In this document: piece by piece, positions 50,999-52,260 of the stretch
Numbering within the stretch: position 1 is the stretch's first letter
Layout of the letters: each line of letters begins with the position of its first letter
Assembly: GCA_022843585.1 (NCBI GenBank)
Contig: JALHNJ010000001.1
Span: forward strand, 372,001 to 436,000
Length of the DNA stretch: 64,000 bases
Origin: Chitinophagaceae bacterium
GTDB lineage: Bacteria; Bacteroidota; Bacteroidia; Chitinophagales; Chitinophagaceae
Direction of reading: 5' to 3'
The notes under the pieces: generated by a model
Told to the model about the DNA's origin: nothing
What the model saw: the letters and a program-made list of their open reading frames with translations, nothing else
The model's database searches: none
Made by a program: the position numbers and the translations under genes

Positions 50999-51030
50999 TT
51001 TGGGATAAAGGTTTCATCCGCTTATTTTTG
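50999..51030 (+). promoter_or_regulatory. Promoter of the asd leader and asd
   Basis: TTTG at 50999-51002, 20 bases, TATTTTTG at 51023-51030 (exact TAnnTTTG). Transcription would begin close to 51035, a few bases before the leader ATG at 51039. Confidence 0.6.
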
Positions 51031-51038
51031 CAATCATC

Positions 51039-51083
51039 ATGGCAGCAACGAAACATACGAAACGCAATAAGAAACATCCCTGA
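51039..51083 (+). CDS. Putative 14-residue leader peptide of asd
   Basis: Short frame encoding MAATKHTKRNKKHP and a TGA. Seven of the fourteen residues are Thr, Lys or Asn, amino acids derived from aspartate; asd makes the precursor of Thr, Lys and Met. The stop codon abuts the antiterminator arm (51084-51095). Identified from the position and the RNA structures, not from homology; translation is unproven, and no ribosome-binding site is seen between the predicted start of transcription and the ATG. Confidence 0.6.
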   Translation: MAATKHTKRNKKHP

Positions 51084-51158
51084 GGGAGGTTTGCAGCGTT
51101 ATGTGTGTATCAACATAAAAATTTTGCAGGCCTTCCTAAATGGAAGGCCTCTTTTTTT
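51084..51158 (+). promoter_or_regulatory. Attenuator: antiterminator versus terminator
   Basis: The strand 51084-51095 (GGGAGGTTTGCA) pairs with 51125-51136 (TGCAGGCCTTCC) over 12 bp with three G-U pairs and no gap. The second arm includes the whole 5' arm of the terminator hairpin (51128-51136), so the two structures exclude each other. A ribosome finishing the leader would cover 51084 onward and permit the terminator; one stalled at Thr4-Lys8 would leave it free. Confidence 0.65.
51128..51158 (+). terminator. Intrinsic terminator in the asd leader
   Basis: Perfect 9-bp stem AGGCCTTCC / GGAAGGCCT, five-base loop TAAAT, then C and seven T. It lies 94 bases before the asd ATG, inside the transcribed leader, and cannot serve the minus-strand gene upstream. 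Confidence 0.85.
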
Positions 51159-51252
51159 GCCCATTCCAAAAAGGAGCAAGGCAGATGCCATTAAAAAAAT
51201 TATTCACTACTTAAAACTTCATCCTTTGAGATGAAAATTGGGGGAACAAAAA

Positions 51253-52260
51253 ATGAAAGTTGCAGTTGTAGGAGCCACAGGATTAGTAGGCACCAAAATG
51301 TTACAGGTATTAGCAGAAAGAAATTTTCCGGTAACGGAATTAGTTCCGGTGGCATCAGAAAGGTCAGTAGGCAAGGAAGTTGAATTTAAGGGCAAGAAGT
51401 ATAAGGTGGTTAGTATGGCTGATGGTATTGCTGCAAAGCCTGCAGTTGCAATTTTTTCTGCTGGTGGCGGTACATCATTAGAGTGGGCACCAAAATTTGC
51501 TGAAGCAGGTATTAAAGTAATTGATAACAGCAGCGCCTGGAGAATGGACCCCACCAAAAAATTAGTTGTGCCGGAGGTAAACGCAGATGCATTAACGGGA
51601 GATGATTTTATTATAGCAAACCCTAACTGTTCTACAATACAAATGGTAGTAGCCCTGCAACCACTGCATGCAAAGTATAAAATTAAAAGAGTAGTGGTGA
51701 GTACATACCAGAGTGTAACAGGAACAGGAGTGAAAGCTGTTGAACAATTGATGGGAGAAAGAGAGAAGGCTGTTAAAGGGGTAACTACTGAACATCCAAT
51801 GGCCTATAAATACCCGATTGACCTGAATGTTATTCCGCAGATAGATGTGTTTTTAGAAAATGGTTACACTAAGGAAGAAATGAAAATGGTGAAAGAAACT
51901 TGTAAAATTATGCGGGACGATTCTATCCGGGTAACAGCTACTACTGTTCGTATTCCGGTAATAGGTGGCCATAGTGAAAGTGTGAACGTAGAATTTGAAA
52001 AGGATTTTGATTTGACCGAACTTAAATCACTATTAGCAGCTACGCCGGGTATTGTAGTACAAAATGATGATGCTGCACAGCACTACCCAATGCCGATAGA
52101 TGCACATGAAAAGGATGAAGTGTTTGTAGGAAGGTTACGAAGAGATGAAAGTCAGCCAAATACGTTGAATATGTGGGTGGTTTCCGATAATCTTAGAAAA
52201 GGAGCTGCAACAAATGCGGTACAGATTGCAGAATATATGCTCTCGAAAAAATTACTTTGA
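51253..52260 (+). CDS. asd: Aspartate-semialdehyde dehydrogenase
   Basis: Enzyme of 335 residues from the ATG at 51253; the track-extending TTG at 51238 is not needed, since the family starts at MKVAVVGATG. It reduces aspartyl phosphate to aspartate semialdehyde, the branch point to lysine/diaminopimelate, threonine and methionine. The nucleotide-binding GATGLVG, catalytic Cys126 in NPNCSTIQ and His240 in GGHSESV are present. A leader with attenuator precedes it, suggesting control by end-product amino acid supply. Confidence 0.95.
   Translation: MKVAVVGATGLVGTKMLQVLAERNFPVTELVPVASERSVGKEVEFKGKKYKVVSMADGIAAKPAVAIFSAGGGTSLEWAPKFAEAGIKVIDNSSAWRMDPTKKLVVPEVNADALTGDDFIIANPNCSTIQMVVALQPLHAKYKIKRVVVSTYQSVTGTGVKAVEQLMGEREKAVKGVTTEHPMAYKYPIDLNVIPQIDVFLENGYTKEEMKMVKETCKIMRDDSIRVTATTVRIPVIGGHSESVNVEFEKDFDLTELKSLLAATPGIVVQNDDAAQHYPMPIDAHEKDEVFVGRLRRDESQPNTLNMWVVSDNLRKGAATNAVQIAEYMLSKKLL

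Follow-up and report, generated by a model that had tools for sequence, protein, structure and literature searches.

How a member of the Chitinophagaceae adjusts asd, the gene for aspartate-semialdehyde dehydrogenase, to amino acid supply is the question raised by a short stretch of DNA in front of that gene. The locus lies in a window of 64,000 nucleotides (nt) from a Chitinophagaceae bacterium (GenBank assembly GCA_022843585.1, contig JALHNJ010000001.1, positions 372,001 to 436,000). The asd enzyme makes the common precursor of lysine, threonine and methionine, and asd feeds lysine through this established pathway. In the trp, his and thr attenuators of enterobacteria, a biosynthetic gene is preceded by a leader peptide with regulatory codons, by mutually exclusive 1:2, 2:3 and 3:4 helices and by a terminator. 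A preliminary description proposed an element of this classical geometry before asd. Judged from sequence, asd very probably stands under a ribosome-mediated transcription attenuator of the trp/his/thr type that senses charged tRNA-Lys from a near-leaderless start. Sequence comparison among relatives reveals a leader frame, three pairings that are alternatives to one another, a terminator, a constant place ahead of asd and the absence of any other consensus promoter. The parts, in window coordinates, are as follows.

50999-51030, + strand: Bacteroidetes-type promoter, with the -33 element TTTG at 50999-51002, a 20-nt spacer and the -7 box TATTTTTG at 51023-51030 (from the sequence and conserved columns)
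51035-51038, + strand: predicted 5' untranslated region (UTR) of about 4 nt, with a transcription start near 51035 inferred from the placement of the -7 box in Flavobacterium psychrophilum
51039-51083, + strand: leader open reading frame (ORF), which is attenuator region 1; ATG at 51039-51041, 14 codons reading MAATKHTKRNKKHP, TGA at 51081-51083
51053-51108, + strand: 1:2 hairpin (anti-antiterminator), 51053-51059 and 51061-51065 paired with 51096-51100 and 51102-51108 in the minimum free-energy fold
51072-51075 and 51077-51080 with 51084-51087 and 51089-51092, + strand: inner part of the 1:2 hairpin in the same fold
51084-51095, + strand: region 2, the antiterminator 5' arm GGGAGGTTTGCA, beginning immediately 3' of the leader stop codon
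51125-51136, + strand: region 3, the antiterminator 3' arm TGCAGGCCTTCC, overlapping the terminator 5' arm
51128-51158, + strand: intrinsic terminator (3:4), stem AGGCCTTCC at 51128-51136 and GGAAGGCCT at 51142-51150, loop of 5, a C, and T7 at 51152-51158
51253-52260, + strand: asd, start codon ATG at 51253 (TIGR01296 asd_B, E 3e-127; NF011456, E 1.1e-134)

Direct reading of the sequence agrees base for base with the preliminary description on the promoter, the 14-codon leader, both stems and T7, including a first antiterminator arm directly behind the leader stop and a terminator 5' arm (51128-51136) lying inside the second (51125-51136). Thr, Lys or Asn occupies seven of the 14 leader codons, the antiterminator arms pair over 12 positions (G-U pairs included), and six of the nine terminator pairs are G-C. 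The terminator was recovered by a pattern scan, which found three terminator-like sites in 1.1 kb against 1.1 expected. Folded alone, 51084-51136 reaches -22.8 kcal/mol (z -4.8, equalled by 0 of 200 shuffles), and the whole leader reaches -39.6 kcal/mol (z -4.3). The lowest-energy fold of the whole RNA adds a hairpin that had escaped the preliminary description, in which leader codons pair with region 2 and beyond (51084-51108); as modelled, this is the 1:2 arm of a classical attenuator. An Rfam match to suhB at 51092-51165 (E 0.075; 23.1 bits against a cut-off of 41) was judged a chance match to the terminator.

The element recurs in front of asd in many relatives. A DNA search with 51020-51165 against 58 genomes (35 of the same genus, the window genome included, and 23 others) matched 18, namely 17 of the 35 and one of the 23; the sole match outside the genus, a 41-nt piece (L018; loci are labelled L, genomes G and contigs C), was left out of the rows analysed. 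The element stands directly upstream of asd on the same strand in all 17 genus rows, although L004 contains only part of asd. Genus genomes of 1.5-2.1 Mb gave no match to the leader in this search. A protein search, from which the best 80 of 586 candidate asd loci were taken, placed the element upstream of 24, distributed over Chitinophagaceae, Chitinophagales, Niastella, Filimonas, Limnovirga, Flavihumibacter, Sediminibacterium, Parafilimonas, and metagenome-assembled genomes of Bacteroidetes and Sphingobacteriales. Two of the 24 are duplicates and were dropped (L020 equals L005, L036 equals L017), leaving 22 rows that make 39 curated rows with the 17. Among the other 56 loci, L043 and L063 had too little upstream DNA, those up to L068 were mostly judged by eye, and L069-L098 were judged only by a detector that let some true leaders escape, which makes absences in that group uncertain. 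No leader was seen at L030 and L035, where another gene ends a few dozen bases ahead of asd. At E<=0.01, a covariance model built from the 39 rows finds a match in 85 of 298 genomes across the order, with all matches below 6e-4 falling within the window's own family, where it matches 85 of 117 genomes and 77 of 101 genera.

The short leader behaves as a reading frame rich in codons for an amino acid that asd helps to make. It is free of stops over its first 13 codons in all 39 rows, a count free of selection bias only in the 17 rows that the DNA search supplied, whereas the other two frames are interrupted in 36 and 24 of the 39. Across the 22 short-type rows, the KHTKR codons at positions 5-9 differ from the consensus synonymously 13 times and non-synonymously once, and codon 12 (K) is invariant; differences at codons 2-4, 10, 11, 13 and 14 are mostly or often non-synonymous. 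Where codons do differ, the mean BLOSUM62 score of the pairs is 1.19 in frame versus 0.35 and 0.72 in the other frames. Longer leaders continue their frame through region 2 (L019, L027 and L042, for example). Lysine accounts for 163 of 599 leader-frame codons (27%) across the 39 rows, against 37 and 64 in the other frames (4.4 and 2.5 times), with 51 His codons in the leader frame. The preliminary description had named Thr or Lys as the signal: the enrichment of Lys bears out one half of that proposal, but Thr has the same count, 91 of 599, in the leader frame and in frame 2. In the 33 rows with a KHT motif (the six without it were not counted), the 251 codons between that motif and region 2 include 92 Lys and 21 Thr. 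The KHT motif itself is probably a scaffold, because the trpE leader of the same genome also starts V-I-K-H-T. The sensed amino acid is probably lysine rather than threonine, on these codon counts, since Thr is not enriched over one other frame and Lys so outnumbers it behind the motif.

Three mutually exclusive helices, 1:2, 2:3 and 3:4, are found in the comparison as in the window. The duplex of leader RNA with the terminator 5' arm, which is the antiterminator, reaches z below -2 in every one of the 39 rows (mean -4.4, dinucleotide shuffles), and the fold preceding the terminator has z below -1 in all 39 and below -2 in 30. In the 39-row alignment, the leader hairpin and terminator together show 83.4% standard pairs and two-sided changes at 16 of 29 pairs; none of 500 shuffles reaches the observed value for any of five measures, and all slid versions score lower. 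The antiterminator 2:3 shows 72.6% pairs and a covariation of 0.226, each unmatched in 500 shuffles. Two-sided changes occur in helices 1-3. The preliminary description had staked its proposal on a leader frame and covarying stems shared by relatives, and both were found: the frame is kept and the alternative structures carry two-sided changes. Together with the 1:2 hairpin, these observations support the classical geometry it had described.

The regulatory codons are also placed where stalling would matter. By the usual toeprint distance, the front edge of a ribosome lies at +15, counted from the P-site codon's first base. When the last usable Lys codon occupies the A site, this edge would fall between -1 and +8 nt from region 2 in all 39 rows (mean 1.6), where the lower limit of -1 is fixed by the selection rule; shuffling codon order at constant composition gives a mean of 6.3 (standard deviation 1.0), and 0 of 2000 shuffles match the observed placement. 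In the window, a ribosome with Lys12 in the A site would have its front edge within one nt of region 2, whereas one that has reached the stop codon would hide most of it (worked by hand), so the stall position would free region 2 and the stop position would cover it.

These placements suggest the following course of events. Transcription would begin 1-5 nt 5' of the leader frame, and the first ribosome would load at or nearly at the 5' end of the RNA. With charged tRNA-Lys (perhaps also tRNA-Thr) plentiful, the ribosome would translate the leader to its stop codon and its front would cover region 2 (51084-51095); regions 3 and 4 would then form the terminator, releasing an RNA some 120 nt long. 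Under a shortage of charged tRNA-Lys, the ribosome would instead stall at Lys11 or Lys12 with its front edge at the first base of region 2. The stalled ribosome would mask region 1, region 2 would pair with region 3, and asd would be read through in the absence of a terminator.

The start of this RNA can be predicted from the promoter. An E. coli-type (sigma-70) promoter is not found above chance (one against 2.6 expected), and the promoter of the preliminary description stands instead in its Bacteroidetes form, TTTG, 20 nt and TATTTTTG. In the 17 genus rows, TTTGG and TA(T)TTTTG form conserved columns separated by DNA that drifts. Of the 39 rows, 31 have a strict TANNTTYG box ending 5-9 nt ahead of the leader start, compared with 2 of the 184 other ATGs in these regions. 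Because the -7 box spans -12 to -5 in F. psychrophilum, in the part of that study covered (PMC9723704), the 5' UTR of the asd leader is probably 1-5 nt long. The very short distance ahead of the leader ATG, which the preliminary description listed as a weak point, is real (8 nt from promoter to ATG) and is a conserved feature of the family, not a defect. Eight rows lack the strict box (L004, L009, L021, L022, L038, L039, L058, L060), and five of these (L004, L009, L021, L038, L060) have no box that close even under a looser pattern; a very short 5' UTR is usual across the rows, not universal. Such starts are uncommon in the phylum as far as the portions of two transcriptome studies covered report: leaderless mRNAs make up 5.5% in F. 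psychrophilum (PMC9723704), and about 3.7% of 5' UTRs in Bacteroides thetaiotaomicron are shorter than 10 nt (PMC7366714). Between the terminator and asd, a gap of 45 nt or less in 8 of the 39 rows, no row has a strict TANNTTYG box, the consensus box being the only promoter pattern tested. An intrinsic terminator thus separates leader and gene with no second promoter of this consensus.

Directly before the asd start (51212-51252), the window also carries a second small hairpin, TTCATC/GATGAA, followed by GGGGGA. The hairpin appears with changed letters in a number of relatives (CTTCCGC/GCGGAAG, CCTCCCC/GGGGAGG), where the stretch that follows it is G-rich and at times resembles AGGAGG, in a phylum nevertheless said to be devoid of Shine-Dalgarno sequences. 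Two other ATGs of the window that follow a similar G-rich stretch have no strong hairpin.

Leaders of the same layout stand before other amino acid genes. Besides the window, 29 best-match loci of the covariance model comprise 27 before asd and two before dapA, while 19 second matches, chosen from a longer list, comprise four before asd, two before dapA and 13 before hisG. The dapA leaders, Lys-rich and of the asd type, come from four relatives (G134, MLMIKKNTKRSKKHSQCTEG; G207, MQNIQKHTKQVKTISIQGKG; G224, MQNIQKHTKQVKTISIQREG; G236, MQLIKKHTKRVKKHSVYREG), all four of which also carry an asd leader (dapA: L119, L126, L140, L144; asd: L116, L138, L139, L212). Leaders at hisG read MKQFTHIHHHHLLP and similar. 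NCBIfam confirms the gene names asd, hisG, dapA (L140), thrA, trpE and pheA, with trpE and pheA as partial sequences below the family cut-offs. A detector restricted to ATG starts missed leaders at other amino acid genes; those of trpE and pheA start with GTG. Ten loci of the window genome appear among 48 model matches listed at E<=10, and two of them, asd and hisG, are real by context; the other eight (L101-L108, E 0.0075-0.27) precede none of asd, dapA and hisG and were rejected.

In the window genome, the codons of these leaders follow the pathway, with His before hisG, Trp before trpE and Phe/Tyr before pheA. The hisG leader MTTYTHNHHHFLLSTSRP (HIHHHH) begins 9 nt after TACTTTTG and is followed by a terminator (L100:1505-1620; L157, G000:C7:97093-97210). 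At trpE (L170, G000:C1), the box TATATTTG is followed after 4 nt by a GTG start, the leader VIKHTNNIWWWHTTLRGL (WWW) and a terminator; this leader has no match to Rfam Bacteroid-trp at E up to 1. At pheA (L171, G000:C12), TATATTTG is followed after 6 nt by a GTG start, the leader VTTTNTYFGFYFYYFFSKRPGMLLLKTN (YFGFYFYYFF) and a 12-bp terminator. A DNA search with the 3' part of the pheA leader matched 17 of 34 genus genomes, and 16 of the 17 have a Phe/Tyr-rich leader 4-10 nt behind the box (one locus each, counting the richest frame within 12 nt of the box); pheA lies downstream in 14 of the 16 loci and was not found in L184 and L186. By eye, no leader was seen in the window genome before dapA (L161, L162), ilvD (L168, L169) or two other homoserine dehydrogenases (L159, L160). 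Upstream of thrA, which encodes a bifunctional aspartokinase/homoserine dehydrogenase, a frame ends in KSTTTTTTTTR and a stop, with eight Thr codons (L167:1020-1080, G000:C5).

Weak model matches in other families of the order (20 of the 24 listed) were judged by eye to be plain terminators in 18 cases and leaders in two. Putative leader-peptide attenuation extends beyond the window's family: an Ile-rich leader MKNMIQIIVIISIIILMNG stands before ilvD (L197:230-370) and a Trp leader MIFNNTNWWWHIQSFRPGS before trpE (L207:230-400) in other families of the order.

Several observations weigh against an attenuator at asd. The element has no DNA match in 18 of the 35 genus genomes and no covariance-model match in 32 of the 117 family genomes. 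The rows are related, their counts are not independent events and were not corrected by a tree, and 22 of the 39 were accepted only once a leader plus terminator had been observed. Differences in codons 5-14 number 10, 34 and 29 at the three codon positions, without a plain excess at the third, and part of the codon conservation may be structural, because the leader codons also serve as hairpin region 1 and KHT recurs at the opening of the trpE leader. Two of the five antiterminator measures are unexceptional, with two-sided-change pairs and pair types reached by 32 and 127 of 500 shuffles. RNAalifold predicts only the terminator and not the leader hairpin on the 39-row alignment, in whose loops the automatic alignment is poor; the evidence above was therefore drawn from pair counts on named structures and from per-row duplex energies.

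The same attenuator might respond to threonine, or to lysine and threonine jointly, in the manner of the E. coli thr leader with its Thr and Ile codons. This is unlikely, though the case deserves weighing: threonine too is fed by asd, Thr codon 7 shows no non-synonymous difference in the 22 short-type rows, some leaders are rich in Thr (L031, MINFTNTTIKTIKGFPRGKA), and one relative, L019, weakly matches Rfam Thr_leader (30.3 bits against a cut-off of 55). The codon counts speak for lysine on both scores, the equal frequency of Thr in frame 2 and the preponderance of Lys behind KHT, and the conserved Thr belongs to what looks like a scaffold that the trpE leader shares. Moreover, thrA has its own run of Thr codons, and it is dapA, on the lysine branch, that carries the same leader type in four relatives (MQLIKKHTKRVKKHSVYREG and MLMIKKNTKRSKKHSQCTEG, for example).

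Two further accounts dispense with a regulatory peptide. The 120-nt RNA could be a free-standing small RNA that lies before asd by chance, asd having a promoter of its own. A full promoter-to-terminator unit is indeed present, and a released attenuator RNA could act in trans as well, as described for rnTrpL in the portion of that report covered (PMC7298713), but the account is very improbable given the constant strand and position before asd in the 17 genus rows, the lack of a consensus -7 box from terminator to asd in 39 rows (eight of them with little room for one), the codon-level conservation of the frame and the sister elements before hisG, dapA, trpE and pheA. Alternatively, a strong and conserved leader hairpin is what an attenuator bound by a protein or metabolite might display, be it a lysine riboswitch, a T-box or the target of an RNA-binding protein, with the frame incidental. 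That idea is barely credible: Rfam matches at E up to 1 include no lysine riboswitch or T-box, the leader frame is kept open, and the regulatory codons vary with the pathway. A leader-peptide attenuator sensing lysine remains the preferred reading.

E. coli asd has been described as lacking a typical attenuation signal. In the part of one source covered, ArgP governs E. coli asd and lysine serves as its signal, lysine is sensed by riboswitch in gamma-Proteobacteria and in Bacillus/Clostridium, and the thr leader is described (PMC12925634). The asd element shares the architecture of leader codons, helices and terminator with the enterobacterial trp, his and thr attenuators (Rfam Trp_leader, His_leader, Thr_leader) but differs from them in its lysine codons, its gene and a predicted 5' UTR of a few nt. 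No sequence homology to the enterobacterial leaders is detectable; the window's only Rfam match at E up to 1 is a weak one to an unrelated small RNA. Thr_leader (RF00506) accordingly has no window match at that threshold, and L019 stays below its gathering cut-off. Closer in phylogeny is Bacteroid-trp (RF01692, "Bacteroidete tryptophan peptide leader RNA"), likewise a Bacteroidetes leader-peptide RNA before an amino acid gene, but with tryptophan and another sequence; it does not match the asd element at E up to 1, and the Trp leader L207 from another family of the order scores 37.4 bits against its cut-off of 49.

Related accounts exist for Bacteroidetes and beyond. "Strong clues" for leader-peptide attenuation upstream of amino acid operons, with elements before pheA and hisG named, come from F. 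psychrophilum (PMC9723704), and long 5' UTRs with small ORFs reminiscent of leader peptides from B. thetaiotaomicron (PMC7366714); the main-text parts covered of both name neither asd nor lysine. In Sinorhizobium meliloti trpLE(G), the 5' end of the attenuator RNA is the ATG of a 14-aa trpL leader, and the leader is thus leaderless (PMC7298713, in part). The asd element resembles it in having a 14-codon leader predicted to lie at or near the RNA 5' end, but trpL belongs to Proteobacteria and to tryptophan, whereas the asd element has a predicted UTR of 1-5 nt and belongs to a lineage with such leaders for several amino acids. The asd RNA motif of Lactobacillales (RF01732) and an attenuator-like sequence at Streptococcus mutans asd are likewise RNA elements before asd, yet RF01732 comes from another order and phylum, and its cis-regulation is marked "?" in the portion of the source covered (PMC2864571); an Rfam search gave no match of RF01732 to the window. 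A 2010 statement, from a source covered in part, held leader peptides unshown outside Proteobacteria and Actinobacteria, save for its authors' own Firmicutes case and ermC (PMC2965389). Among the literature matches listed (titles and abstract openings), there was no lysine leader at asd or dapA and no near-leaderless set in Bacteroidota. New here would be the probable lysine sensing at asd and dapA in near-leaderless form; ribosome-mediated attenuation, Bacteroid-trp and the leaderless trpL of S. meliloti are already known.

A broader proposition is evenly balanced: that Chitinophagaceae, and perhaps Bacteroidota at large, possess a set of attenuators (Lys at asd and dapA, His, Trp, Phe/Tyr, Ile) whose frames start at or within a few bases of the RNA 5' end, that near-leaderless loading free of Shine-Dalgarno sequences is essential to the timing of the switch, and that asd/dapA would be the first ribosome-mediated transcription attenuator to sense lysine. 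The textbook example of transcription coupled to translation is attenuation, most of whose known cases come from Proteobacteria, and flavobacteria have been described as lacking Shine-Dalgarno sequences. Against that description, and with few leaderless mRNAs or very short 5' UTRs in two Bacteroidetes transcriptomes, a conserved near-leaderless leader before asd makes two questions testable, namely by what route ribosomes reach nascent RNA that has no Shine-Dalgarno sequence and how tightly transcription and translation are coupled in the phylum. Lysine, which is sensed by riboswitches elsewhere, would gain a sensor based on the ribosome, and the presence within one genome of leaders for several amino acids would supply swappable controls.

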